NCBI RefSeq assembly: GCF_000519265.1
Contig: NZ_KI912608.1
Coordinates: forward strand, 1,731,582 to 1,795,581
Reading direction: 5' to 3'
DNA: 64,000 nucleotides
From: Desulfonatronum lacustre DSM 10312
Lineage (GTDB): Bacteria > Desulfobacterota > Desulfovibrionia > Desulfovibrionales > Desulfonatronaceae
The notes under the pieces are model-generated. The model was not told the origin of the DNA. It saw nothing but the letters and a program-made list of their open reading frames with translations, and made no database searches. Made by a program: the position numbers and the translations under genes. Within the stretch, counting starts at the first letter, position 1; each line of letters begins with the position of its first letter. Shown in pieces: positions 9,830 to 49,400 of this stretch.

Positions 9830-11263
9830 CTAAAAAATGGCCTTGCGCTTGGAAGACGACTCGATGTTCAACGCCATGCGGTACTTGGCCACGGTACGGC
9901 GGGCGATGTTCACGCCCAGGGACTTTTTCAAAAGTTGCGAGATCAGTTCGTCGCTGAGCGGACGCTTGGGGTCCTCTTCGGAAATCAGCTTCTTGATCTC
10001 CGCCTTGACGCTTTCCGAGCCGGCCTCCGACCCGTCGTCCATACCCAGGGCGCTGTTGAAGAAAAATTTCAGTTCATACGTTCCATGGGGCGTGCTCATG
10101 TATTTGCTGGTCGTGATCCGGCTGACCGTGGACTCGTGCATGTTGATGTCCAGGGCCACATCCTTGAGGATCATCGGCTTCAGATGCGTCACCCCATGGC
10201 GAAAAAAATCAATCTGGAACCGGACGATGCTTTCGGCGACCTTGTGCAGGGTCCGCTGGCGCTGGTACAGGCTTTTCATCAACCAGTGAGCGGATCGGAC
10301 CTTTTCCTGAATGTAGTCCCTGGTCCCCTTGTCGTGAACGGACAGCTCCTTGGCGTAGGCCTCATTGACCATCAAACCCGGTATCTCGTCCTCGTTCAGA
10401 ACCACGATGAAATCGCCGCCGTGCTGGAGGATGTAAACGTCCGGGCTGGTGAACTGAGGATCATCGGAGCCGAAGCTCTTGCCGGGCATGGGGTCCAGGC
10501 GCTGGATGCAGTCCAGGTAGTGTTTGATTTCCTCCATGGAGAGCTTGAACTTCTTGGCCAACGGCTTGTAGCGACGTTTTTCCAGCTCCTCCAGATGATC
10601 CTTGACCAGGGAGACCAGAATCGGGTCGTCCAGCCCCAGTTCGTCCATCTGGACCAGCAGGCACTCCCGCAGGTTCCTAGCGCAGACCCCCACGGGGTCC
10701 AGGCGTTGCATGATCCGCAGGATCCGCTCCGCCTCCTCCGTCTCGCAGCCGGCCATGGCGGCGATGTCCTCAATGGATTCGCAAAGATACCCCACGGCAT
10801 CCAGGTTGCCAAGGATCACCTCGCTGACGGCCAATTCCCGCTCCGACAAGGCCGAAAGCCGCAACTGCCAGGAAAGATGGCCGATCAGCGTGGACTTGCC
10901 GGCCAGCCGGGCCTCGAAACTCATGCCCTCTTCCGGGACTTCCCAGTCCCGGCCCTGGATCTGTCGACTGATGCTGGAAAATTCTCCCAGGTAGTCCTGC
11001 CACTCCGAATCGTGAAGCTGCCGGGGCTCCTCGACGTTGACGGACTGGAACCGATCCTCGGCAGGGTCTTTTATCGGGGTCTCCACCGTCTCATCGATGC
11101 CTTCCGGCGCGATCTCCAATACGGGATTCTCCAGCAATTCCTGCTGGATGCTTTCCACCAGCTCCAGCCTGGAAAGCTGAAGCAGCTTGATGGCTTGTTG
11201 CAGTTGGGGGGTCATCACCAACTGCTGCGTCAACTTCAGTTGCTGGCGCAGTTCAAGAGCCAT
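9830..11263 (-). CDS. rpoN: RNA polymerase sigma-54 factor
   Basis: The 477-residue protein contains the Gln/Leu-rich activator-interaction region I (MALELRQQLKLTQQLVMTPQ), an acidic region II, the core-binding domain, and the C-terminal RpoN box ARRTVAKYRMAL that contacts the -24 element. A TTG start at 11326 would add 21 residues of unlike composition. ATG at 11263 begins exactly at region I and has GGAGG upstream. It directs transcription from -24/-12 promoters with AAA+ activators; one such activator (22054-23460) and one good promoter (21761-21776) lie in this window. The gene follows lptB by 63 bases. Confidence 0.97.
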   Translation of the reverse strand: MALELRQQLKLTQQLVMTPQLQQAIKLLQLSRLELVESIQQELLENPVLEIAPEGIDETVETPIKDPAEDRFQSVNVEEPRQLHDSEWQDYLGEFSSISRQIQGRDWEVPEEGMSFEARLAGKSTLIGHLSWQLRLSALSERELAVSEVILGNLDAVGYLCESIEDIAAMAGCETEEAERILRIMQRLDPVGVCARNLRECLLVQMDELGLDDPILVSLVKDHLEELEKRRYKPLAKKFKLSMEEIKHYLDCIQRLDPMPGKSFGSDDPQFTSPDVYILQHGGDFIVVLNEDEIPGLMVNEAYAKELSVHDKGTRDYIQEKVRSAHWLMKSLYQRQRTLHKVAESIVRFQIDFFRHGVTHLKPMILKDVALDINMHESTVSRITTSKYMSTPHGTYELKFFFNSALGMDDGSEAGSESVKAEIKKLISEEDPKRPLSDELISQLLKKSLGVNIARRTVAKYRMALNIESSSKRKAIF

Positions 11264-11326
11264 GTCGCGTTTTCGCCTCCATGACCGGGCTGACCGGTTG
11301 GAACGCCAATCCCGATTGTTGATCAA

Positions 11327-18593: not shown

Positions 18594-18633
18594 GGAGCAA
18601 GGGCGGATACAAAATGTGCTGAGTAGATACAAA

Positions 18634-18677
18634 ATCGGGCCACCGGCCGAGGCGCATGCCTCGGCCGGTGGCCCGAT
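18634..18677. terminator. 20-bp perfect hairpin, probable bidirectional terminator
   Basis: ATCGGGCCACCGGCCGAGGC (18634-18653) pairs perfectly with 18658-18677 around a GCAT loop. A short T5 run follows on the plus strand (18689-18693) and AAAA precedes on the left, giving T residues for minus-strand transcripts. It sits between the convergent ends of gcvPB and the chemoreceptor gene, as expected of a shared terminator. Confidence 0.75.
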
Positions 18678-18727
18678 ACGAATCTCCGTTTTTCGCCCTC
18701 ATTCAGATGGCTTCGGGAGATTCAGCT

Positions 18728-20764
18728 TCACCCCTGCTTCATCCGCTGTACCACCTCTTGCAGTTCCACGGCCTGCCTGGCCAGTTCGGAGATGGCCTGG
18801 GCCGACTGGTTCATGACCTCGCTGGTTTCCGAGGAAATCCGGTTGATATCCTCCACTCCGCGGTTGATTTCCTCGCTGGTGGCGGACTGTTGTTCCGCTG
18901 CCGTGGCGATGGACCGAACCTGATCCGCGGCCTGTTCGGCCAGGGCCAGGATTTCCCGCAGCGCGTCCCCGGATTGGTTGGCCAGTCTGGTGGCGTCCTC
19001 AATGGCGGTCACGGATTGGTCCATGCCCCGGATGTTGGCCTGGGTGCCTTGCTGAATGGCGGAGATGGCTTCGCCCACTTCCTTGGTGGCATTCATGGTC
19101 TTCTCGGCCAGCTTGCGCACCTCGTCGGCCACCACGGCGAATCCACGTCCCGCGTCCCCGGCCCGTGCCGCCTCAATGGCCGCGTTCAGGGCCAGGAGGT
19201 TGGTCTGGTCCGCGATGTCCTCGATCACAGTCATGATCTTGCCGATCTGTTCGGCCTGCCGTCCGAGATGATCCAGGTTGTTCTTCATTTCCTGGGCCTT
19301 GGTCTGCACCGTGTTGATGGCTTCCACCGAGGCACTGACCACCTTGGCGCCGTCCCCGGCCTTGGTCCGGGCCTGGTCCGAGGCTTCGGCTGCCTGGGAA
19401 GCGTTCTTGGCCACTTCCAGCACCGTGGCGTTCATCTCCTCCATGGCCGTGGCCGTTTCCCCGGTACGGCTCGTCTGCTCCTCCGCGCCCCGGCTGGCCT
19501 CTTCCACCTGGGCCGACAATTCCTCCGAGGCGGAAGTCATTCGCTCCACCACGCCCTCGATATTGGTCGCGGCCTCAAGCATGCCGTCGCGTTTGGCCGT
19601 CTCGGCCTGGGCTCGGGCTTCCTCGGCCTCTCGCGTGGCGACCTGGGCTTTTTCCGTCTCTTGTCGGGCCAGTTCGGACTGGTGCTCGGCCTCCTTCATT
19701 TTTTCGATCAAGGATTGAACCATGGCCTGAATGCTCAGGTTCAAGCGCCCGATTTCGTCTTTCTGGTCAATGCCGGACCGAGCCTGCAAGTCGCCCTTGG
19801 CCACGGCGTCGGCGTACGTCATCAGACGACTCACCGGGCCGGTGATGGCGCGACTGACCAGTAGGGCGATAATGATGCCTACACCGAAGAAAACCAGGGA
19901 AGCGATGGCCACGGCCCAACGCAACTGATACACCGGTGCCAGCACGTCGTCCTGCATGGCCCCCACGGCAATGGACCAACCGGTGCCGGGAATAGGCGCG
20001 AACCCAAAAAAACGGTCCGTCCCCATGAACGGGTACGCATCAAAACCCGACTCGCCTCGAACCATCCGCTGGAACATGGCCGCCAACGGGGCGAACTGGG
20101 CATCCGTCCGCGCCTCTTCGATGAAGTTGCGCTGGTCCATCACGAACTGCCTGTTGCCATGGGCGATCAAGGCCCCCTTGTCGTCGATGATGTAGGAGTA
20201 CCCCGCCGCCCCGTATCCGATCTCGTCCGTGATCTCGCTGAGCATCGTGGCGTCCAGGCGGGCCATAAGCACGGCCTGGACCTGCCCCCGGTCTCCCCTG
20301 ATGGGCGTGGCCAGAATCAACACCGGTTGATTGGTCACGCGACTGATAATCACGTTGGAAAAGACCGTCCGGCCTGCCATGGCATCTTGGAAATACGCTC
20401 TGTCGCTCAGTTCCGCCGTGGTTCCGTCCGGATAGCGGGCCAAGCCGTTCGGGGAGATGACCCCCATTCCCAGATAGTTCAATCGGACGGTCTCATTTTC
20501 CAGGGCAGGCCGCTGCTGCATCCAGTCCATGGAGCGGATCACATGGCGGTTGGCAATGCCTTCCAGAGCCAAAATGTGATAATCCAGCTGACTCCTGACA
20601 AGCTTGGCTCCATCCTCGGCCATCAGCGGAATATTTTCCTCCACCTGGGCGACCACGGCACGGGAGGCGCGATCGTAGGCAATGTACCCCAACCCGCCGC
20701 AGACCAGGACCAGCAAGGTCAAAAAGCCGCCAAGCAGCTTGATTCCAATAGGTATGTTTTTCAT
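18728..20764 (-). CDS. Methyl-accepting chemotaxis protein with dCache sensor
   Basis: The 678-residue receptor has membrane helices at about 9-30 and 283-305 enclosing a periplasmic dCache domain. That domain contains [32 protein letters not shown] and [21 protein letters not shown], typical of amino acid or carboxylate sensors. A HAMP domain, a coiled coil and the signalling domain follow, with the hairpin tip [21 protein letters not shown]. There is no C-terminal pentapeptide. GAAGGAGA precedes the ATG. The gene is last in a receiver-cheW-receptor operon; cheW ends 37 bases upstream. A likely sigma-54 promoter drives the unit. No CheA is encoded nearby. Confidence 0.96.
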
Positions 20765-20800
20765 GTTTCATCTCCTTCGTTTTATAATAGTTTCCGTGTA

Positions 20801-21283
20801 CTAAATGCTCTTCAACATGCTTTGTTCGCCTTTGCTCAACAGACTGTCCAGATCCAGCAAGATCAGCAACCGATCCGCCAGCTTTCCCACCCCCCGGATA
20901 TATTCCGATTCGATCCCGGAAATAATCGGCGGTGGCGGTTCCACCGTATTACCTGGAATGCGCAGCACCTCGGACACCGAGTCCACCACGAAGCCGATGA
21001 TGACGGCGTTGATTTCAATGACGATGATCCGAGTGTGCTTGTCGTGCTCCTGGGCGGCCATGCCGAAACGTGTCCGCAGGTCAATAATAGGAATGACCTT
21101 GCCCCGCAGATTGATCACGCCTTCCACGAAATCCGGGGCCTTGGGCACCCGGGTGATGCCCATCATCCGGATGATCTCCTGAACCTTAAGGATCTCCACC
21201 CCGAACTCCTCCTCGCCGATGTGGAACGTGACCAGTTGCAGGAGATTGCTGTCTTTTTTTTGGTCCGATTCGTGTTGTTGCAT
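20801..21283 (-). CDS. cheW: CheW-like chemotaxis scaffold protein
   Basis: The 160-residue cytoplasmic protein is a single CheW domain: LVTFHIGEEEFGVEILKVQEIIRM, VINLRGKVIPIIDLRTRFGM and VDSVSEVLRIPGNTVEPPP. It should couple the adjacent chemoreceptor to a CheA kinase encoded elsewhere. It is the middle gene of the receiver-cheW-receptor set, 82 bases after the receiver stop. A short ACT/Gln-rich N-terminal extension (MQQHESDQKKDSN) precedes the domain. A second cheW lies at 39149-39652 and is clearly a different copy. Confidence 0.95.
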   Translation of the reverse strand: MQQHESDQKKDSNLLQLVTFHIGEEEFGVEILKVQEIIRMMGITRVPKAPDFVEGVINLRGKVIPIIDLRTRFGMAAQEHDKHTRIIVIEINAVIIGFVVDSVSEVLRIPGNTVEPPPPIISGIESEYIRGVGKLADRLLILLDLDSLLSKGEQSMLKSI

Positions 21284-21365
21284 GGTTTCTCCTTCGTATC
21301 GATAGTATCAGATTTCCGATTCAAAAAATGGTTGTTCACGGCAAATGCCGCTTGTCACCGGCCAG

Positions 21366-21749
21366 TCAACTCTCCGCCAGGGCCGGACGAATCGCGGCGA
21401 TCAACTGTTCGCCGTCAAACGGTTTATGGAGCACGCCGCACACTCCCATTCCCTGAAGCAGCGACATGGTTTCCCTGTCGCCGTATCCGGTCATGACCAA
21501 GATATTGATCGGATCATCGGACTGCTTGAGGATCTTAATGAGTTCCAGACCGTCCATGACGGGCATCTTGATGTCGGTTACGACCAAGTCGACCCTCTGA
21601 ACCTGCTCCGGCGCCTTCGCCAAAATCCGCAGAGCTTCCAAGCCGTTATCCGCTTCCAGCACCTGGAACCCGTGATGCTTGAGAATCAGCGCCAAGGTGA
21701 AACGAACCCTGGGCTCATCGTCAACGATGAGGATAAGCTTTCCGTCCAT
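21366..21749 (-). CDS. Single-domain response regulator
   Basis: The protein (127 residues from ATG 21749) is one CheY-like receiver. It has the acidic pair Asp10-Asp11, phosphoacceptor Asp59 in VVTDIKMPVMDG, Thr87 in VMTGYG and Lys109 in HKPF. There is no output domain, so it is either a phosphate relay or a protein-binding regulator like CheY. An in-frame ATG at 21797 would add 16 unlikely residues. The putative sigma-54 promoter at 21761-21776 would start the transcript within a base or two of the chosen ATG, implying a leaderless message. It heads the operon with cheW and a chemoreceptor. Confidence 0.9.
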   Translation of the reverse strand: MDGKLILIVDDEPRVRFTLALILKHHGFQVLEADNGLEALRILAKAPEQVQRVDLVVTDIKMPVMDGLELIKILKQSDDPINILVMTGYGDRETMSLLQGMGVCGVLHKPFDGEQLIAAIRPALAES

Positions 21750-21760
21750 GCCCTTGCGTA

Positions 21761-21776
21761 AGCACAAGGTGTGCCA
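21761..21776 (-). promoter_or_regulatory. Probable sigma-54 (-24/-12) promoter of the receiver-cheW-receptor operon
   Basis: On the minus strand the sequence is TGGCACACCTTGTGCT. It matches the sigma-54 consensus TGGCAC-N5-TTGC with the correct 10-base spacing between GG and GC; one position of the -12 box differs. Transcription would begin near 21750. Palindromic activator-like sites lie about 100-205 bases upstream, and an NtrC-type activator gene is next upstream. Confidence 0.6.
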
Positions 21777-21853
21777 CGGGCTCGCAGCAGCATACAAATC
21801 TGGAATAAAAGGAAATATGTGAAAGACCGGGGCGAAAGGAGACAGCCAAAGCC

Positions 21854-21956
21854 GTCAACCCTGATTGTCAAAGGGGATGTTTGGACCGGAAAGGTCAAGA
21901 AAGGCGAGTGATGCAGCCAGGGTTGACGAAAGTTGAAGGCGTCAACCCGGGTTGAC
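21854..21956. promoter_or_regulatory. GTCAACCC/GGGTTGAC palindromes, probable enhancer sites for the NtrC-type activator
   Basis: A perfect 16-base palindrome GTCAACCCGGGTTGAC lies at 21941-21956. A half-site GGGTTGAC lies at 21920-21927, and an imperfect copy (GTCAACCC followed by TGATTGTC) at 21854-21869. They fall between the activator gene end (22054) and the receiver gene, at the distance usual for sigma-54 enhancers. The whole 304-base gap (21750-22053) shows no other gene. Confidence 0.6.
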
Positions 21957-22053
21957 ATTCTTGAATGAAAGGGGTTGTGAAAACGCGGGAATAAATTGGC
22001 GGCAACGCCTCCCTATACGTCAAAAGCCTCTGGACGAAAGAAGCGGATTGGGG

Positions 22054-23460
22054 CTACCGCGCCTTTTTAACCCGCTTATTCAATGCTTGCCGGGTAATAC
22101 CAAGGATTGCCGCTGCCTTGGACTGATTACCGTTGGTTGTCCGCAGCGCCTGTTCCACCAGCATGTCGCCGGCTTGTTCCAGGGTGGGGAGGGGGTCGGG
22201 GTACTGCCATGACGCGGAGCGGCGGTCGGGATTTCGTTGCCTCGCGACCGGGCCGGCCAGACCGATCCCCGTGAGGTCGGCGACCCGTTTTCCCAGGATC
22301 GCCATGCCGCCTTCGGCCATGGCCGCGAAGACAAGCGAGCGAAGCTCCCGGATATTGCCTGGGAAACCATACGACGCCAACAGTTCCGCGACACGAGGAG
22401 ACAGCGGTTCCCGGTTCACGTTCAGTTCGGAACCGGCCTCGGCCAGGAAGAACTCGGTCAGGAACGGAATATCGCCCTTCCGCTCCCGCAAGGGCGGAAG
22501 ATGGATGTGATAGGTGTTGATTCTGTACAGCAAATCCTCTCGGAACTGGCCGTGCTTCTGAGCCGCCTTCAGGTCCCGGTTGGTGGCGGCGATGATTCTG
22601 GCCGTGCACGTCTTGGGCGTGTCCGATCCCAGGGGATAGTAAACGCGGTCCTGGATGAGTTTGAGCAGTTTGACCTGCGAAGCCGGGGTCAGATCGCCGA
22701 TTTCATCCAGAAACAACGAGCCGCCCTCAGCCTGCTCCACAAGCCCTTTCCGGGCTTCGCGGGCATCGGTGAACGCCCCCTTGACGTGCCCGAACAGCGT
22801 GTCCGCGAAGACATTGTCGTCCAGGCCGGCAGCGTTCAGCCCGATGAACCGGCCCTTGCGCCCGCTGGCTTCGTGCAGGGCCGCGGCCAGCAAATCCTTG
22901 CCGGTCCCGGTTTCTCCGGTGACGAGCACGGGAGCGGACAAGGGAGCGACGACCTCAACATAGCTGAAGATTGCCCGCATCCGAGGATCCTGGGTGATGA
23001 TCCTCCGGAAAACATCCGGCTGATCCAGGTCGCCTGTGAGCAATTTTCGTCTCAATCGGCTATTCTGCTCCAGAACCGAAGCATGGCTCATGGCCCGGCG
23101 CACCGTGGTCACCAGCCTGTCCGGCTCCACGGGCTTGACCAGATAGTCGAACGCTCCGGCCTGGATGCACCGCACCGCCGTATCCGCCTCGTTGATCCCG
23201 GTGACCACCACCACCTGCACCAGCGGACTGCATTCCCGAACCCGTCCCAGGACCTCCTCCCCGGGCATGCCCGGCATGGAAAGATCCAGCAAGAGCACCC
23301 CGCTTTCCTGCTCTGAAAAATGGTCCAGGATTTCTCGGCCGTCATGAAACGTCCGGACGTCCGCGAAGCCGAATGATTTCAGCGTCAACAAAAAGCTTCG
23401 CGTCAGAGCCTGCTCGTCGTCGAGGATGTAAACGGGAAGATGAGACGTGGAATCAGGCAT
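22054..23460 (-). CDS. NtrC-family sigma-54-dependent response regulator
   Basis: The 468-residue protein has an N-terminal receiver (about 8-120, phosphoacceptor Asp59 in LLLDLSMPG). The AAA+ domain (about 150-380) has Walker A GETGTGKD, the sigma-54 contact loop GAFTDA in place of the usual GAFTGA, and Walker [11 protein letters not shown] Fis-type helix-turn-helix ends the protein ([22 protein letters not shown]). It activates sigma-54 promoters. The kinase gene 200 bases upstream is its likely partner, and the palindromes just downstream are its likely targets. AAGGA precedes the ATG. Confidence 0.95.
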
Positions 23461-23511
23461 GATCGTCCTTGCGTGTGGGTAACACCATTTCTAACTCAAA
23501 GCTTCTCTTTC

Positions 23512-23608
23512 GGTATCGGCATCGGTATCGGCATCGGGGTCGAATTAGGATTATTGGCGAACAAACAGTATCGATACCGATACCGATACCGACGCCGACC
23601 CCGATAAC
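23512..23608. repeat. Inverted pair of hexamer (GGTATC/GGCATC) tandem arrays
   Basis: Left array 23512-23541 has five 6-base units (GGTATC, GGCATC, GGTATC, GGCATC, GGGGTC). Right array 23573-23608 has six complementary units (GATACC three times, GACGCC, GACCCC, GATAAC). A 31-base AT-rich spacer lies between, so the RNA could fold into a long hairpin. It occupies the 200-base gap between the kinase stop and the NtrC-type regulator start, and shares design with 18490-18593. Confidence 0.85.
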
Positions 23609-23660
23609 TGCATTTTCTCAAGCGAAAAACGCATTGCCGAAGTAGAATTGGTAAACCGCG

Positions 23661-25976
23661 CTACTCCGGGACGCTCAGGAGCACGGTGACCATCGTGCCC
23701 TGCCCCGGACTGGATTCAAAATGAATGTCGCCCCCATGATCCTGGATGATCGCGGAACTGATGGACAATCCCAGCCCGGTCCCTCCGGTTTTGTGTCGCG
23801 TGCTGTAGAACGGATCAAGGACGCGGTTCATGTCTTCGGGACGAATCCCCTCGCCCTGGTCCGTGATCCGGACGGCCACGGCCTTGCGCTCCGGGACATG
23901 GTGCGTCTCCAGAACAATGGATTGTTGCTTGTCGGTCAAGGCCTGACAGGCATTCAGCAACAGGTTGACCACCACCTGCTCCAGCTTGTGATGGTCCCCC
24001 TGGATCAGCGGCAAATCCGACGAGAGCGTTACGCTGAAGTTGTCCGTGTACCTGGAGACGGCCTTCCCGATCAAAACCAGAGCCGATTCGACCACCTCGT
24101 TGATATTTACTTGGGCTGCCATATCCAAAGGCGTCTGACGGCAAAAATCCTTCAGTTCATTGATAATCTTGGCAATACGCCTGCTTCCTTCATTGATCCC
24201 GGAATACAATTCCAGGGCGTGCTCGCGCATCTCGCCAAAGGGAATTCCGGCAAGTTTGAGGTCGGGGTTGGTCCGCCAATACTCTTCCAGTATGGACGAC
24301 ACGTCCCTCCAGGCCCGCTCCAAGAGAGGCGCGTTGAGCATGATCAGATTGTTGGGGTTGTTGATCTCGTGAGCCACCCCGGCCACAAGGGTGCCCAGGG
24401 CGGTCATTTTGGAAGCCTGTGCCAGCTGCTCCTCCTGTTCCTTCTTGGCGATTTCCAACTGTCTTTTCTCGGTTATGTCCTGAAGCATGCCAATGATCGT
24501 CACGGCCTTGTCGCCATTATCGACCTTCACGTCCCCAAGGACCCTGACCCATTTCCGTTGGCCTCGGACAACGACCCGCAGTTCAAAATCAAATGCCTGG
24601 GGAGACCGCAAGAGCTTGTCCCGGGTCATGACCGTGAACTCGCGATCATCTTCATGGATGATCCACAAGACGTCATCAAAAAGAAGTTCTCCCTCTCCTT
24701 CCATGCCGATAATGCTGAACGCTTCTTCCGACCCCGTGAAAACATCGCGAACCGGATCGTATTTCCAACTGCCCATGCGGGCCAATCGCTCCGCTGCTTT
24801 CAGGTCGGCGTTGCTTTTCTGGAGCGCCGCCTCGGCCTTCTTTCGCTCGGTGACGTCCCGAGAACTGAAGAGGAGTTCCTTGGGATTGCCCTGGTCGTCA
24901 AAAATAAAGCCTCCCACCGTCTCAAGCCAAAGGTAGCTTCCGTCGGCCCGAGAACATCTCAGCTCGGCCTTTCGCGCACCGTCCTTGACGGCCAGAAAAT
25001 CCTCAAAAGCCGCCATGATCTTCGGCTTGTCCTCCGGGTGGACGAACTCCATGATGTTCCTGCCCAGCCGGGAATCGACGTCATGCCCCAAAAGACTGCC
25101 GGACCTGCTGAGAAACAAAATTTTGCCCTCCAAATCGGTGAGGGTCACCATGTCGAGCATGTTGTCCGTGATTTTCCCCAGAAGGCGGGTCTGTTCCTTC
25201 AAAGCCTCCTGGGATCTTCTGAGATCCGTGACGTCCCGGACAATGGCCAAAAAATGCTCGCCACAGCCCGTCATCCGGCTTTCGTAACACTTGGTTTCAC
25301 CGTTAAAGACAAGTTCATATCCGTAGGAAACGCATGCCCCCGTTTCAGCAACCCGGTCGATGTGCCGGAGGCTCTGCTCAGCGATATCCGGGCCAAGGAC
25401 ATCCCGCACATTACGGCCCAGAAACATGTCCGGCTCCATCAGGAGAGCGCCGCATGGCGCATGGTAATCCAAAAACACCCCGCTCCGACTGAAGAGGAAC
25501 ATAAAATCCGGCAGGGCGTTGAGCAGGGCCTTGTTTCTGTCTTCGCTTTCCAGCAGTTTCTCATGATCCAGTTTGGCCTCGGTAATATCCGTGGTGAATC
25601 CCTGATAACAAGCAATCTCTCCGTTTTGATCCCGGACCACCCGTGCATTCACGGACACCCAAAAAACAGAACCGTCCCGGTGCAGCCGACGGCCCTGATG
25701 GTTCCAGACCTGGCCGTGTTCTTCCAGGAGCCGCTTGAATTCCTCCCTGTCCGTGGGATCGACGTAGACCTGACCGGGGATGTCCTGGACCGCCTCCAGA
25801 AACTCCTGGGGAGATTTATAGCCGAACATCCTGGCCAAGGCGGTATTGACCGAAAGGTACTTTCCCTCAGGCGTGGAGGTGAAGATGCCGATGGGGGCGT
25901 GATCGAAGAAATCCGGATCGTTGAAGCCGATCACGCCGCCGACGTCATGGCGACTTTGGGGGCATGTGGTGAACAT
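23661..25976 (-). CDS. Four-PAS histidine kinase (NtrB/ZraS-like)
   Basis: The protein (about 771 residues from ATG 25976) has no membrane segment. Four PAS domains (about 15-135, 145-260, 270-390 and 400-515) precede a HisKA helix with the phospho-His motif AGVAHEINNPNN and an HATPase with NLLLNACQAL, DQGEGI and GTGLGLSIS. It is therefore a cytoplasmic sensor kinase. ATG at 25976 has GGAG eight bases upstream; an ATG ten codons earlier lacks one. It lies directly upstream of the NtrC-type regulator, its probable partner. The first PAS ([16 protein letters not shown]) is nearly repeated in the kinase at 36667-39057. Confidence 0.93.
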   Translation of the reverse strand: MFTTCPQSRHDVGGVIGFNDPDFFDHAPIGIFTSTPEGKYLSVNTALARMFGYKSPQEFLEAVQDIPGQVYVDPTDREEFKRLLEEHGQVWNHQGRRLHRDGSVFWVSVNARVVRDQNGEIACYQGFTTDITEAKLDHEKLLESEDRNKALLNALPDFMFLFSRSGVFLDYHAPCGALLMEPDMFLGRNVRDVLGPDIAEQSLRHIDRVAETGACVSYGYELVFNGETKCYESRMTGCGEHFLAIVRDVTDLRRSQEALKEQTRLLGKITDNMLDMVTLTDLEGKILFLSRSGSLLGHDVDSRLGRNIMEFVHPEDKPKIMAAFEDFLAVKDGARKAELRCSRADGSYLWLETVGGFIFDDQGNPKELLFSSRDVTERKKAEAALQKSNADLKAAERLARMGSWKYDPVRDVFTGSEEAFSIIGMEGEGELLFDDVLWIIHEDDREFTVMTRDKLLRSPQAFDFELRVVVRGQRKWVRVLGDVKVDNGDKAVTIIGMLQDITEKRQLEIAKKEQEEQLAQASKMTALGTLVAGVAHEINNPNNLIMLNAPLLERAWRDVSSILEEYWRTNPDLKLAGIPFGEMREHALELYSGINEGSRRIAKIINELKDFCRQTPLDMAAQVNINEVVESALVLIGKAVSRYTDNFSVTLSSDLPLIQGDHHKLEQVVVNLLLNACQALTDKQQSIVLETHHVPERKAVAVRITDQGEGIRPEDMNRVLDPFYSTRHKTGGTGLGLSISSAIIQDHGGDIHFESSPGQGTMVTVLLSVPE

Positions 25977-26028
25977 GATCAGTACTCCATGAGATTCGCC
26001 TGCCATCTGGTTGAGTCCGGGACGGGCC

Positions 26029-28473
26029 TCACTCCCTCCCCAGCGCCTCCCGCACCGCGGCCTCCAGTTCCTTCAACTGATACGGCTTGCCGATGAAGCC
26101 CGCTGCCCCGGATTTTAGGCTTTCCCTAGCCTGACCGTTGGCCGAATAGCCGCTGGAGATAAGCACCCGAACAGCCGGGTCGAGGCGGAGCAGTTCCTGG
26201 AGGCATTTGTGGCCGCCCATGCCGGGCATGTTCAGGTCCAGCAGGACCAGGTCGATGGTTTGGCCGTGCTCCTGGTAGATATCCAGGGCTTCTTCCCCGT
26301 TGGCCGCGTGGAGCACGACATAGCCGAAGTCTTCCAGGGCCTCCTGAGTCAGCTCCCGGATTGTCGGCTCGTCGTCCACCACCAGGATGGTTCTGACGTC
26401 GTTGTCGCCGTCCATATCGGCCTTGGGCTTGGCTTCGGGTTGATGTGGCTCGCCCGACCCTTCCTCGAAGGGATCGGCGGCCGGCAGGAAAATCCGGAAC
26501 GTCGTGCCTTGGCCGGGTTCGCTGTAACAGTGAATGTAGCCGCCATGGCTTTTGACGATGCCGTAGACCGAGGCCAGCCCCAGGCCGGTGCCCTGGCCCA
26601 CTTCCTTGGTGGTGAAGAAGGGGTCGAAAGCCTGCTTGAGCGTTGCCTCGTCCATGCCGCATCCCGTGTCGGTGACCGTCAGGAGCACGTGACATCCCAC
26701 GGACGAGCCGGGATGGCTGACAACGAAATTTGAGTCCAGTTCCACATTGCTGGTTTCGATGATCAACCGACCGCCCTCGGGCATGGCGTCAACGGCATTG
26801 TTGGCCAGGTTGAGCAGGATCTGTTCCATCAGCACCGGGTCGCCGGATATCGGACGGACCGCCGGATTAAGGCGCAGTTCCAAGGCGATCATCTTGGGAA
26901 TGGTCCGCTCCAGCATCTGGGCCGCCTCGCGAACTTCCTGGTTCAGATCGACCGGCTCCTTGCCGGATTCAGCCTTGCGACTGAAGAGCAGAAGCTGTTG
27001 GACAAGCCTGGCTGCCCGGTCCAGGGACTTGGTGACGGATTCCATCCGGGCCGCACTTTGGGAGTCGCTGGATACGCTCCGGATCAATAACTCGATATTG
27101 CCGCGCATCACATGGAGCAGATTGTTGAAGTCGTGGGCCACGCCCCCGGCCAGAATGCCCACGGATTCCATCTTCTGGGCCTGAAGCAACTGGGCCTGGA
27201 TCTTGGCTTTCTGGGCCAGAACCATGTTTGATTTCGCGCCGATCTCGCGCAACTCGGCGATGCGCAGCGCGTTCAGATCCACCGGCGTATCCTCGCCGCT
27301 TTCGCTGCGGGAGACGATCAGATCCAATTCACGAGAGAACCAGGCGGCCATGCGATGGCTGACCAGCAGCACCAGCATTGCCGTAACGCAAAGAGCGATT
27401 CCGGCAATCAGGACATTGACGACCAGACGTTGGTTCATGCCCGCCTGCACTTCGGCCAACCGCGCTTCGATATCCTCAATGTACACGCCTGTCCCCAACA
27501 CCCAGCCCCAGTCGTCCACGGACCGGACAAAGCTGAGCTTCTTGGCCGGTTCGCCTGTGCGCGGATCAATGGTGGCCACATATTCCAGGAACCCACCGCC
27601 GGGCTGTCGGCCGACGCGATCCAGCTCCTGCACCAGTTTCATGCCGGACGCGTCCAGCAGTTCCCAGCGGTTCCGGCCGATGTTCTCCTTATTGACATGA
27701 TTGAGGCAGACACCCTCCCGCGTGTGATTGAATATATATCCGACCTCTCCGTAGCGGACGGCGGCAATACGCCTGATCATGGCCTCCTGGGTTTGAGCTT
27801 CGACATCCTCCACGTATTCCCCAACGCCGATCACCCAGTTGTACGGCTCGAACAACTGAAGGTAGGCAATTTTCTTCCGCCCCAGCTGCCGGTGGTAACG
27901 CTCGTCGATCTCTGGTTTGCTCCAGTAATAGTCGACAAACCCGCCTCGCGAATCGGACAAGGCCGCGGCGACGAAACTCTGGATCAGCAATTGCCCTTGG
28001 CTGTCCACAAGATCGGTGTCGTCCCCCCCAATGGACCCTTCACGAAAAGGGTGGGCCACGAGAATATGGTCCGTGTCGTGAATCCAATAGTAGCCGCGGC
28101 CATTAAAAAAACGCAGCGGCATCAAGGCGTCGATGATCAGTTGCCTGACCTCGGCCTCGTCGCGCGACCCGCTTTCCCGGGCATGGATCGCCGTGGCGAT
28201 GTCAATGGCCACGCGGACCTTTTCAAGAATATTCCGCTTCAGCCGATCCTCGACTTCGGCCTGATGAAAGGCTATTTCTTCAACCAGTTGCTGGACAATG
28301 GCCCGGACCTCGGCCTTGCGCAGGGCGAAATGGTCTTCATGGATGCGCTGCATCGTCTCGAGCTGATACTGGTGCTCGCGCTTGATCCAGAAGTAGCCCA
28401 CGACCGTGCCGGAGAGCAGCAGGATGGCGACGACCACGACCTGGAAAACCTTTTTGTAGCTGTATGTTTTCAT
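26029..28473 (-). CDS. Double-Cache hybrid histidine kinase with C-terminal receiver
   Basis: The protein (814 residues from ATG 28473) has membrane helices at about 10-29 and 335-360. These flank two Cache-type repeats, each with a GYxW/GYIF motif (FNGRGYYWIHDTDHILVAHP and GEVGYIFNHTREG) and KSFVR/YVEDVEAQ-like ends. A HisKA domain follows (AGGVAHDFNNLLHVMRGNIELL), then an HATPase ([32 protein letters not shown]) and a receiver (DDEPTIREL, DLNMPG). A start at 28602 would add a Pro/Arg-rich leader. The periplasmic Cache pair implies an external small-molecule ligand. No separate regulator is obvious. Confidence 0.93.
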   Translation of the reverse strand: MKTYSYKKVFQVVVVAILLLSGTVVGYFWIKREHQYQLETMQRIHEDHFALRKAEVRAIVQQLVEEIAFHQAEVEDRLKRNILEKVRVAIDIATAIHARESGSRDEAEVRQLIIDALMPLRFFNGRGYYWIHDTDHILVAHPFREGSIGGDDTDLVDSQGQLLIQSFVAAALSDSRGGFVDYYWSKPEIDERYHRQLGRKKIAYLQLFEPYNWVIGVGEYVEDVEAQTQEAMIRRIAAVRYGEVGYIFNHTREGVCLNHVNKENIGRNRWELLDASGMKLVQELDRVGRQPGGGFLEYVATIDPRTGEPAKKLSFVRSVDDWGWVLGTGVYIEDIEARLAEVQAGMNQRLVVNVLIAGIALCVTAMLVLLVSHRMAAWFSRELDLIVSRSESGEDTPVDLNALRIAELREIGAKSNMVLAQKAKIQAQLLQAQKMESVGILAGGVAHDFNNLLHVMRGNIELLIRSVSSDSQSAARMESVTKSLDRAARLVQQLLLFSRKAESGKEPVDLNQEVREAAQMLERTIPKMIALELRLNPAVRPISGDPVLMEQILLNLANNAVDAMPEGGRLIIETSNVELDSNFVVSHPGSSVGCHVLLTVTDTGCGMDEATLKQAFDPFFTTKEVGQGTGLGLASVYGIVKSHGGYIHCYSEPGQGTTFRIFLPAADPFEEGSGEPHQPEAKPKADMDGDNDVRTILVVDDEPTIRELTQEALEDFGYVVLHAANGEEALDIYQEHGQTIDLVLLDLNMPGMGGHKCLQELLRLDPAVRVLISSGYSANGQARESLKSGAAGFIGKPYQLKELEAAVREALGRE

Positions 28474-28505
28474 GGAGGTATGGGTTGGTTCAGGGTTCAG
28501 CTCCC

Positions 28506-30158
28506 TCAGGCCTCCGGCAACGTGAAATACACCGTCGTACCGTGGCCGGGGAGGCTTTCCAGCCGGATTCGGCCTCCGTGCTTTTCGATAAACTGCTTGC
28601 ACAGCACAAGCCCCAGGCCGGTTCCCTTTTCGCCATCCGTTCCCAGCTGTCGTTTTCCTTTTTCCAGGGTGAAAATGGAGGACAGCACCTGCTCGCTCAT
28701 ACCTATGCCGTTGTCCTGAATCGCCATGGTCACTTTCCGGTCCGCTAGCCGGGCCGTGATGGCGATCTCGCCTCGGCGGGGGGTAAACTTGACGGCATTG
28801 AAGAGAACGTTCCGGATCACGGTCTTGATCATGGGCTGATCAACCAGAACGGTCAGCCCCGGAGGAATGTCCACGCGAAGGGAAATTTCCTTGCCCTTGG
28901 CCAGATCCTTGGCCGTGGACAACCCCATGTGCAGCAGGTTGTCCAGGCTGGTCGGCGTGGGTTCGAAATCGATCCCTCCCTGGCTCATCCGAGCCCATTG
29001 CAGCAGGTCTTCCAGGAGGTTGAAGGTGTTTCGGGCGTTCTTGTGCAGGGCGGTGGCAAGGAACCCGAAATCCCGCTCGGAAAAGATCTCCGGTTCCCGG
29101 GCCAGCATTTCCGTCGAGACCAAGAGGCCGGACATGGGGGATTTCAGGTCATGGGCAATGATGGCGAAGAGCATGTCTTTTTCCGCAATCGCCTGCTGCA
29201 ATTGTTCATTGATCTGTACGATTTCTTGTTCCGCCAGTTTGCGTTGGGTAATGTCGCGCACCGCGGCAACCCTCAGGGTTTCATCCCGGGTTATGAAATC
29301 TCGCGCTTCCAGCTCGGCGTAAAAAACCTCTCCGCTCTTTTTGACGGCCCGGACCGTGTAGGGCCGGGCATACTCCTTGACGATGTTGGACCTGACAATG
29401 TCCCGATCCTCCTCATGAATGAGCAGCTCCAGGATGTTCACCCCCAAAAGTTCATCCCGTTCATAGCCGAACAACCTGCTCAACGAGGGATTCAAGTCCC
29501 TGGCCACTCCATTTTTGTGGATGACGATCCCTTCCAGGGTCACATCGGAGAGCAACCGGTAGCGCTCCTCACTTTCGCGGCGCGCCGCCTCAGCCCGGAC
29601 CTGCTCACTGATGTCGGTGAGGATGAGCAGCAGATGCCGCCGGGCGTCATGAGCCGGCTGGTCCTGGCTTTCCTTTTCCATTCTCCCGACGCACCGCACG
29701 GTTGGACCGCCGTTTTGGCCATGCAGCCGGAAATCCAAATGCTTTCCCTGGGGATTCTTGAAAAAGGCCTTGAACCGTCCATAAAAAGCCGAGCGTTCCG
29801 TGGGATCAATACAGTCGGCCAGGGCCTTTCCGGACAGGTACGCGGGCTCCCGCCCGACCATCCCGGCAAAGGTCTCATTGGTCTGGACGATGATCCCGGT
29901 TTCATCAATGGTCAAATACCCGACCGGCGCATCGTTAAAGAGCCTGGCGTATCTATCCCTGACCAGTTCCAACTGCTTCTGGGTTTCGCGCAATTCCTCG
30001 TTTTGGATTTCCAGTTCGATCTGATGAACCTGATAATCATGGATCAAGTCCTTGATCTCCGGCCCGGAGAGCTTGTCAACCGGCTGGGATGCCTTTTCCA
30101 GGCGCGCCTCAGCCTGGGTGCGCAAACGTCGCAGCCTTTCGTCAAAACCATCACGCAT
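28506..30158 (-). CDS. PAS-domain histidine kinase
   Basis: The protein (550 residues from ATG 30158) lacks membrane segments. An N-terminal coiled segment (LSGPEIKDLIHDYQVHQIELEIQNEELRETQ) is followed by two PAS domains (about 60-175 and 200-315). The HisKA domain has AIIAHDLKSPMSGLLVSTEML, and the HATPase has NVLFNAVKFTPRRGE, DNGIGM and GTGLGLVLCKQFI. The start overlaps the stop of the CheB-CheR gene by eight bases with AAAGGAAC upstream, so the two proteins are co-translated and probably work together. An upstream extension to 30398 is only the overlap with that gene. Confidence 0.92.
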   Translation of the reverse strand: MRDGFDERLRRLRTQAEARLEKASQPVDKLSGPEIKDLIHDYQVHQIELEIQNEELRETQKQLELVRDRYARLFNDAPVGYLTIDETGIIVQTNETFAGMVGREPAYLSGKALADCIDPTERSAFYGRFKAFFKNPQGKHLDFRLHGQNGGPTVRCVGRMEKESQDQPAHDARRHLLLILTDISEQVRAEAARRESEERYRLLSDVTLEGIVIHKNGVARDLNPSLSRLFGYERDELLGVNILELLIHEEDRDIVRSNIVKEYARPYTVRAVKKSGEVFYAELEARDFITRDETLRVAAVRDITQRKLAEQEIVQINEQLQQAIAEKDMLFAIIAHDLKSPMSGLLVSTEMLAREPEIFSERDFGFLATALHKNARNTFNLLEDLLQWARMSQGGIDFEPTPTSLDNLLHMGLSTAKDLAKGKEISLRVDIPPGLTVLVDQPMIKTVIRNVLFNAVKFTPRRGEIAITARLADRKVTMAIQDNGIGMSEQVLSSIFTLEKGKRQLGTDGEKGTGLGLVLCKQFIEKHGGRIRLESLPGHGTTVYFTLPEA

Positions 30159-41952: not shown

Positions 41953-44812
<2,860 letters not shown>

Positions 44813-46499: not shown

Positions 46500-49400
46500 C
46501 TATACCAACACCATGCGCAATTCCTCAAATCCTTCCACCAACGCTCCCATCCTCGCCGCAACCGCATCCAAGTCCCTCCCTTCGGCCGCGTCTTCCATTT
46601 CCTTGGCCAGTGCCCGCAGGGCCTCCGCGCTCAGATTGGCGGCCATGCCCTTGATGGTATGGGCCTGCATACGGGCGGCTTGGGCGTCGGCGGCATCCAG
46701 GGCCGTCTGGAGTTCCCGGATGTGCCGGGGCATGTTTTCCAGGGACAACTTCAGCACATCCCGAACCAGGTCCTCATCCCCCATGCAACGATCCAGAAAC
46801 GCGACGCGGTCGAACACGGGCGGAGCCGCGCCCTCCCCTGTCCGTTCCTTTGCCTCCCGCTCGCCACCCCCTTCTTTCCCCTCCCGACTTCTGACTCCTG
46901 ACTCCTGACTTCTCTCTCTTCCCAGCCACCTTCCCAGCACCCGGGCCAATTCATCCGGGTTCACCGGCTTGGCCACGAAATCATCCATACCGGCCTCGAA
47001 ACACAGCTCCCGATCCTCCGGCATGGCCCCGGCGGTCATGGCGATCACCGGCGTTCGCCGGGAGGGATGAGGGCTGAAACCTGAGGCCTGAGGATCGGAA
47101 CTCTGTCCTTTGTCTTCCGACTCCTGACTTCTGACTCCTGACTCCTGAATTCTTATCCTTCTCGTCGCCTCCAACCCATCCATCTCCGGCATCATCACGT
47201 CCATGAGCACCAGGTCGTAGGGGGTGGTTTGCAGGGCGTGGAGGGCGTGGAGGCCGTTGGAAACGGTATCGACATGAAGGCCGAATTTCCTGAGCATGCC
47301 CAGGGCCACCTGTTGGTTCACGGGGTTGTCCTCGACCACGAGGACCCGGCCGATGAAACGCGGACAGGCTGCCTGGCGGCGCTGGATTTCCCGCGCCAAA
47401 TGGCGGGTGATGATCGGCTTGGAGGCAGATCGCTCTCCCGTGTCGGCCATGACCAGGGCCAGAGTGTCGTACATCTCGGATTGGCGCACCGGTTTGTTCA
47501 GGTAGGCGGCAAAGCCCAGGTCCGCGAACAGGCGGGCATCACCGGGCCGCCCCAGAGACGTGAGCATGACCAGAGGGATGGGCCGAAACCGTGGATCGGC
47601 CTTGAGCAGCCGCCCCAGACTCCCGCCGTCCATGCCCGGCATCTGAAAGTCCACAATGGCCAGATCGTATGGATCGGCCCGGTCATGGGCCTCAGCCGCG
47701 GCCCGCAGGGCCTCTTCCCCGCCCTCGACGGCCTGGGGCCGCATCCCCCAGGCCGTAAACTGCTTCATAAGGATTTCCCGGTTGGTGGCGTTATCGTCCA
47801 CCACGAGAACATGCAGCCCCGTCAGATTCTCCACGGCCTCGGGCAGAGCCTCGTCCGTCGCCTCTTGAACACCGAACCGGGCCGTGAACCAGAACTCCGA
47901 ACCCTGACCCGGCATGCTGCTCAACCCTATTTCTCCGCCCATCATTTCCACCAATTGCCTGGAAATGGCCAATCCCAGCCCGGTGCCCCCGAACTTCCTG
48001 GTAATGGACGCATCCACTTGGCTAAACTTGTCGAAAAGCAGATCGATCTTGTCCTTGGGGATGCCGATGCCGGTGTCCCGGACCGTGAAGCGCAGCTTCA
48101 CGGTCCGGGGTTCAGGGTTCATCGGTTCACGGTCCAAGGGTTCACGGTTCACGGTTGGATACGTGGTAGGGTCGGGGTGTGTTGCGTTTGGCGTGACATC
48201 GTTGGGCGAAAGATTTTTCGCCCCTACGCCACCATCCGGTATTCCATCAGTCATTTCATCAATTCCAGCATCCCAGCATTCCAGCATTCCAGCATTTCCT
48301 TCCTGCCTCTCCACCATCACCACAACTTCCCCCCTCTCCGTAAACTTCACCGCATTTCCGATCAGGTTCGTCAAAATCTGGCGCAGTCTTCCGGGGTCGC
48401 CGCGAAGAAGGGTGGGGGCGTCGGGATGGATGGAGGAGATGAATTCCAGGCCTTTCTCGTGGGCTCGCAGAGCCATGACGGAAGCGATGTCGTCCATCAG
48501 GTTTTGCAAGTCGAAGTCCAGCAGCTCCATGCTGACCCGCCCGGCCTCAATCTTGGAATAATCCAAAATGTCGTTGATCAGGCTCAGAAGGGCCGCGCCG
48601 CTGGTCTGGATGGTTTCGGTATAGCGGCGCTGCTCTTCGGTCAGACCTGTATCCAAAAGCAGTTCGGTCATGCCGATCACGCCGTTCATCGGGGTGCGAA
48701 TCTCGTGGCTCATATTGGCCAGAAATTCGCTTTTGGCCCGAGTAGCCGCCTCCGCCTTGATCAGGGCCGCGTCCAGTTCCTGATTCTTCAGTTCCATCTC
48801 ATCGACCATCTGGTGCAATTTATCCTCGGCCTGCTTGCGGGCAATGACTTCCCAGGTCACGTCGGCCAAAAATATCAAGGCGTCCAAATCCTCCCGGGTG
48901 TAGTCCACGGGCTTGTTGCCCACGCCCATGATGGCCGCCACCGCATCATGGCGCATCACGGGAACGACCATTTCCCGAACCACCTCGGCATGGCCGTCCG
49001 GCAACCCTTTCTTGTGCGGCAGGGAGGCGTAGTCGTTGTGGACCACTCCCTTGCGCTCCCGGACGCACTCCACCCAGACCCCGGCCCGGTCGATGTCGTA
49101 GTGCAGACCTTGGCCAGGCGCATTGCAGAAACGTTCCTTCGTCGCCGTGGACCACTGCTGCAAGGACAGGGTCTTTTGATTCGGTTCCACGAAATGCAGG
49201 AAACTGATGGAGCTGTTCAGAAACCGTTCAACTTCGTCCAGTGCCTTGACCATCAATTCGGCCAATGTGTGATCGAAGGAAGAGGATACCAGCCTGAGCC
49301 GGATTTCCGTTTGCTGTTCGATCCGTTTGCGACTGGTGATGTCTTCCTTCACCGCGATGTAGTGGGTGGTCCGACCCCGCTCGTCGAAGATCGGCGAGAT

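Follow-up and report, generated by a model that had tools for sequence, protein, structure and literature searches.

The window analyzed here is a 64,000-nucleotide stretch of the Desulfonatronum lacustre DSM 10312 genome, in which a run of signaling genes lies entirely on the minus strand, from a hybrid kinase to a methyl-accepting chemotaxis protein (MCP). First in the run is a dCache_2 hybrid histidine kinase with a receiver (28602-26029), a possible further input to the system, and a similar kinase is found in locus L171. It is followed by a PAS histidine kinase (26006-23661), the likely partner of the next gene product, an NtrC-type response regulator (23460-22054) that we propose as the activator. 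Beyond an intergenic gap of 304 bases (21750-22053) lie a single-domain receiver (21749-21366; its ATG begins at 21749), cheW (21283-20801) and an MCP with dCache_1, HAMP and MCPsignal domains (20764-18728), the latter two each with a strong Shine-Dalgarno site. The gene for sigma-54, rpoN, is also located inside the window on the minus strand (9830-11326; PF04552 match, 3.9e-60). In a separate part of the window, five stretches of 140-300 bases within 41979-43795 recur 4.5-5 kb further on, within 46526-48756, at 75-84% identity and with 14-base short repeats between them, an arrangement that we read as a diverged duplication.

Sigma-54 promoters follow the consensus TGGCAC-N5-TTGCW. The intergenic gap contains a -24/-12 element, TGGCACACCTTGTGCT, at 21776-21761 on the minus strand, which carries the GG and GC elements at the set spacing, deviates from the consensus at one position, and is the sole match with at most one mismatch in the 64 kb. 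Taken alone the match is weak evidence, since matches with up to two mismatches are not enriched in the 64 kb (25 observed versus 29.8 expected) and shuffling the intergenic stretch 20,000 times gave a site with at most one mismatch on the minus strand in 257 cases. A like element recurs in relatives, about 85-120 bases from the proximal activator site, and this recurrence, together with rpoN, which such a promoter requires, argues for a sigma-54 promoter. A first-pass annotation of this DNA had described a correctly spaced -24/-12 element just upstream of the receiver-cheW-MCP operon, had read it as a sigma-54 promoter, and had named the activator and its likely kinase as the next genes; its coordinates and its reading agree with the present analysis, in which the next genes upstream are the activator (22054-23460) and the PAS kinase (23661-26006).

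The proposed activator consists of a receiver, a sigma-54 AAA+ domain and a Fis-type HTH domain (PF00072, PF00158 and PF02954, in that order), with GETGTGKD as its Walker A motif. The exact GAFTGA loop is absent from it; at this position it has GAFTDA, a natural variant found in 14 of the 15 regulators of its clade, the exception being a paralogue from the same genome, with GAFTGA. PMC4641369 places GAFTDA among the loop variants held to keep activity. Thirteen of the 14 other clade members examined have a kinase resembling the PAS kinase next to their regulator, and the remaining one (L163) sits at a contig start. In the genome as a whole, 101 matches to the regulator are found at E <= 0.001, some of which share only part of it.

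Palindromic sites upstream of the promoter

Activator sites of sigma-54 promoters are typically located some 80-200 bp upstream. Three putative binding sites of the form GTCAA-N6-TTGAC fit this placement, and relatives have sites at like places. Site 1, the most distal, is the perfect palindrome GTCAACCCGGGTTGAC at 21941-21956 (no strand assigned), centered at about -198 from 21750. Site 2, also distal, has a single good half, GTCAACCCTGGCTGCA on the minus strand, at 21927-21912 (center about -169), where several relatives likewise have a site. Site 3 is proximal, GTCAACCCTGATTGTC at 21854-21869 (center about -111), with one mismatch in ten fixed bases. A perfect palindrome and two further sites about 100-205 bases upstream had been annotated before: all three are present and the first is indeed perfect; sites 2 and 3 are imperfect.

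Across the 3.76 Mb genome, a search that the first-pass annotation had itself proposed, GTCAA-N6-TTGAC occurs only once, at 21941-21956, and the reversed control pattern occurs twice. Among 20,000 shuffled versions of the intergenic stretch, 5 contained a perfect palindrome and none combined a perfect palindrome with a second site of at most one mismatch. A matrix built from 21 perfect sites of relatives only ranks 21941 first and 21854 second in the 64 kb.

A further block, TATTCCAG, at 21800-21807 on the minus strand (about -57 from the predicted start), may weakly indicate an IHF-related element. The pattern TATT[CT]CA[AG] is found at this fixed distance of about -57 in 6 of 11 loci, and an IHF-like stretch is present near -55 in 7 of 11. 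The latter is missing from the window within two mismatches, so that IHF is only a hint here.

Related regulators and their target operons

We searched for the regulator in 348 genomes of the order and compared the closest 15, the window included, which form one group with 100/100 support in a tree against six hand-picked outgroup rows. A perfect palindrome is located within about 550 bases downstream of nine of the 15 (G000, G038, G039, G007:C1, G003, G006, G004, G002:C3 and G031), and a site with one mismatch accompanies two more, G007:C6 and the paralogue from D. lacustre itself. No palindrome was found in the DNA examined for the other four (G002:C38, G034, G041 and G042), which for G042 amounts to no more than about 620 bases up to the end of its contig. 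The receiver of G042 is encoded on a different contig, behind a -24/-12-like element without a palindrome and some 95 bases of leader. The D. lacustre paralogue (L102/L177) has two imperfect sites, with one and two mismatches, lacks a clear -24/-12 element and is followed by a different gene. Its surroundings (L177, G000:C1:2614000-2632000) comprise a paralogous kinase, the GAFTGA regulator and then another sigma-54-activator-like protein; the palindromes are degenerate and the target differs.

Site or sites, -24/-12 element and receiver or MCP gene follow each other in this order in nine loci besides the window (L164, L166-L171, L173 and L176), the element having one mismatch in four of them and two in five (L166, L167, L169, L170 and L176). 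In the clearest loci (L164, L168 and L169), three perfect palindromes lie at about -210, -183 and -111. The recurrence of sites at the same places spans two families.

The sites are also found at operons that lie away from the regulator. In genome G002, the regulator (82% identical to that of the window) is encoded on a 32 kb contig (L163) where no palindromes and no receiver operon follow it, and the receiver-cheW-MCP operon is inside a 129 kb contig (L165, C9), where it has kept a perfect palindrome, two weaker sites and a -24/-12 element; its receiver, cheW and MCP are 73%, 92% and 96% identical to those of the window. Another cheW and another MCP gene are appended to this operon. Genome G039 has a second receiver-MCP operon (L219, G039:C117) with two perfect palindromes, a weaker one and a promoter. 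Its single regulator at E <= 1e-110 is on contig C3, not on the contig of L219, and in the 3.4 kb around L219 the one frame other than the receiver and MCP genes measures 114 aa and lies on the opposite strand. As no regulator is present there, the activator of L219 probably acts in trans. The palindromes at the displaced operons of G002 and G039 indicate that the palindromes go with the target. In G038 (L171), the MCP gene comes first and is preceded by three perfect palindromes, with a leader. The earlier attribution of the palindromes to the adjacent activator thus gains support from comparative sequence, as they recur downstream of most close relatives and upstream of displaced receiver operons.

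Distance between the promoter and the receiver start codon

Counted 12 bases from the last C of TGGCACACCTTGTGCT, transcription is predicted to start at 21750 on the minus strand, one base before the receiver ATG. A pyrimidine followed by a purine, here C then A, is the usual pair at start sites, so the A of the ATG (21749), a purine after a conserved C, may itself be +1. Either position would make the receiver message leaderless, as had been predicted from a start near 21750.

In the tree, the regulator of the window falls into a clade of six (window, G002:C38, G007:C6, G039, G038 and G041). The spacer between the -12 C and the ATG measures exactly 12 bases in the four receiver-first operons associated with this clade (window, G002:C9, G007:C6 and G039:C3), which were grouped with this geometry already in view. 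The alignment of their receivers, used as a search query, returned, apart from the four themselves, one further strong match, G039:C117 (4.3e-50), which also has 12 bases; it is the sole out-of-sample fit to the 12-base spacer, and all five operons share ancestry. The predicted leaderless start is supported by an identical -12-to-ATG distance in five operons of four genomes.

Three properties of these five operons bear on the prediction. First, every one of the five spacers ends in C (C|ATG), and the other 11 bases average 36% identity over the 10 pairs. The distance between the proximal palindrome and the promoter varies (93, 91, 88, 115 and 118 bases). Second, three of the five receivers have an in-frame stop two to four codons before the ATG without an intervening start codon, which excludes an upstream start in those three. 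Third, when the three bases touching the ATG are omitted, the receivers pair with the anti-Shine-Dalgarno sequence at energies of +0.5, -3.9, +1.2, +0.7 and -0.9, whereas nine cheW and MCP starts downstream reach -6.9 to -12.1; in the window the receiver has a duplex energy of +0.5 versus -8.8 for cheW and for the MCP. The only Shine-Dalgarno-like bases at the window receiver, AAGGG, end one base before the ATG, closer to it than a Shine-Dalgarno site would normally work.

The other seven receivers found by the alignment search are not of the 12-base kind. Up to the likely start, L216-L218 have leaders of about 63-66 bases; those of L220 and L214 measure about 105 and about 95 bases, and that of L215 more than 200. 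The receiver of L213 is not the first gene. In clade B (L164 and L168-L170), the likely receiver start is about 63-66 bases from the predicted transcription start. Each of the four clade-B loci also has a different ATG that begins 12 bases on from the -12 C, with 11 bases intervening. It opens short or overlapping frames before the receiver, and in L169 a frame that continues into the receiver with 22 extra codons; this ATG may mark an upstream ORF or start that is leaderless.

The idea that sigma-54 promoters of D. lacustre give leaderless messages as a rule was considered and rejected: among 20 of the 49 genome pattern matches, many of which may not be promoters and which do not include the window's own, none has an ORF of at least 60 aa that starts at +1 or +2. 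Eight of the 20 have an ORF with an AGGA-type site 26-75 bases on, and two more have one at 104 and 157 bases. Locus L184 is ambiguous, since a 64-65 aa frame opens at -1 or +3 next to an ORF with a leader; in L196 the ORF lies at +10 and lacks a Shine-Dalgarno site. By eye, L186 and L188 (G000:C1 996872 and 2814321) have similar -24/-12-like elements followed by a similar leader and Shine-Dalgarno site and then by small proteins whose starts resemble signal peptides.

Alternative readings and the proposed circuit

The alternative that survives best, though we consider it unlikely, accepts sigma-54 control and holds that the working message is leadered, produced from a second promoter further up or by read-through from the kinase and regulator genes, so that the fixed distance is an inherited accident. 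Read-through is possible, because no intrinsic terminator was found in 21700-22100, a range that includes the sequence between regulator and receiver. When all 22 bases are counted, the pairing energies of the window and G002 receivers become -4.2 and -5.0, so that a leadered message could be translated weakly from their modest Shine-Dalgarno-like bases, and the leaders of the clade-B relatives also speak for this alternative. However, the other three receivers keep their values (+1.2, +0.7 and -0.9) and are thus without real Shine-Dalgarno pairing, and no sigma-70-like promoter was found in 21700-22100. Moreover, the spacer has retained its length though its letters diverge, and the distance from the proximal palindrome to the promoter has not been held constant.

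We judge it improbable that some other DNA-binding protein, such as a repressor or a different activator, recognizes the palindromes and that the adjacent regulator acts elsewhere. The four clade regulators without a nearby palindrome would fit such an arrangement, but a tandem pattern of two palindromes 27 bases apart, searched with up to two mismatches allowed, is found in 5 of the 348 genomes, in each case with no mismatch and beside this regulator family (reversed control, one match). The presence of receiver relatives also tracks that of the regulator, as the 10 of 348 genomes with a relative at E <= 1e-33 are all among the 12 genomes that have one of the 15 regulators. Among 31 more distant regulator homologues (32 of 80 loci examined, L013 being counted under G041, apparently the same contig), none has a perfect palindrome in the DNA examined, and they were therefore not used as footprints.

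Far less probable still is that the palindromes are RNA hairpins acting as a terminator or attenuator of the upstream operon. A perfect inverted repeat shortly after the regulator gene could suggest this, but no terminator-like site was detected, no known RNA family reaches the Rfam gathering score in 18600-28700, the inner six bases vary among the 21 perfect sites of relatives, several of them without complementarity, and sites also precede operons that are not downstream of a regulator. Chance coincidence of an unrelated -24/-12 match and palindromes, which the shuffled -24/-12 matches and a genus-wide palindrome frequency not above the reversed control (23 versus 24 in eight genomes) might favor, is refuted by the comparison and practically negligible, given that no shuffle combined a perfect with a near-perfect site, that the sites recur at the same places in two families, and that placement differs, with 16 of the 23 perfect palindromes located where these regulators or receivers are encoded.

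The sequences themselves show the sites and how they recur, also at displaced target operons, the fixed promoter-ATG distance and the weak Shine-Dalgarno pairing of the receivers. From the comparisons, we regard it as very likely that sigma-54 control is exerted through the intergenic stretch 21750-22053 and that the operon is controlled by the adjacent regulator. Control by the regulator and a leaderless start, taken jointly, are favored with modest confidence as a sequence-based prediction. On the narrower proposal that sigma-54 drives a leaderless message, and that the 12 bases between the -12 C and the ATG were fixed by selection to make the phosphorylation-triggered start coincide with the start codon, our judgment is evenly divided.

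In the proposed circuit, the upstream kinase or kinases would phosphorylate the NtrC-type regulator, which would then bind the GTCAA-N6-TTGAC sites about 110-200 bases upstream, that is, the distal pair and the proximal site. The bound regulator would loop to sigma-54 RNA polymerase at 21776-21761, perhaps with help from IHF near -55, for which the indication is weak. Transcription of receiver-cheW-MCP would start on the receiver ATG or one base before it, and the receiver would be translated from a leaderless 5' end, with cheW and the MCP translated from the same message via their Shine-Dalgarno sites. The operon itself lacks cheA, so its three products presumably enter a chemosensory complex that is formed elsewhere.

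The targets of DVU2106, a regulator of Desulfovibrio vulgaris, are reportedly the orp operons. In PMC4641369, DVU2106 is listed with a GAFTDA loop, the same variant as in the activator of the window, and with two target operons; the word "leaderless" does not occur in its main text. The orp operons are described as transcribed by sigma-54 with a need for IHF (PMC3897727). Unlike DVU2106, which PMC4641369 presents as a single-component regulator of cell-division genes, the regulator of the window bears a receiver and would control receiver-cheW-MCP genes. More broadly, the D. vulgaris NtrC-family regulators studied by DAP-chip are described in PMC3333781 as having mostly palindromic sites, with inverted repeats of 4-6 bp that are 3-8 bp apart, and 7 of the 21 regulators with a found target had it in adjacent operons. 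The window regulator resembles these sigma-54-dependent response regulators, and a GTCAA-N6-TTGAC palindrome adjoining the regulator gene fits the description; the strings GTCAA and TTGAC were not found in its main text.

With its predicted 5' end at or next to the ATG and no usable Shine-Dalgarno site, the receiver message would resemble leaderless bacterial mRNAs, as portrayed in PMC3847290, PMC3616915, PMC4842269, PMC5243855 and PMC12403871. PMC3847290 and PMC4842269 link leaderless genes to -10 motifs of the sigma-70 type, whereas the promoter predicted here is of the activator-dependent -24/-12 kind. Within the passages searched, leaderless genes go with sigma-70-type promoters or with none, and a leaderless gene assigned to sigma-54 was not found among them; such cases may exist.

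The arrangement of regulator, sites and promoter is of a known kind, and sigma-54 with a predicted leaderless start is the unusual part. The locus offers a complete and testable circuit, with one activator, one or two target operons and sites recognizable by eye. Should the leaderless start prove real, a single promoter would combine sigma-54 control with leaderless translation, and the ratio of receiver to receptor could then shift with the state of the translation machinery.
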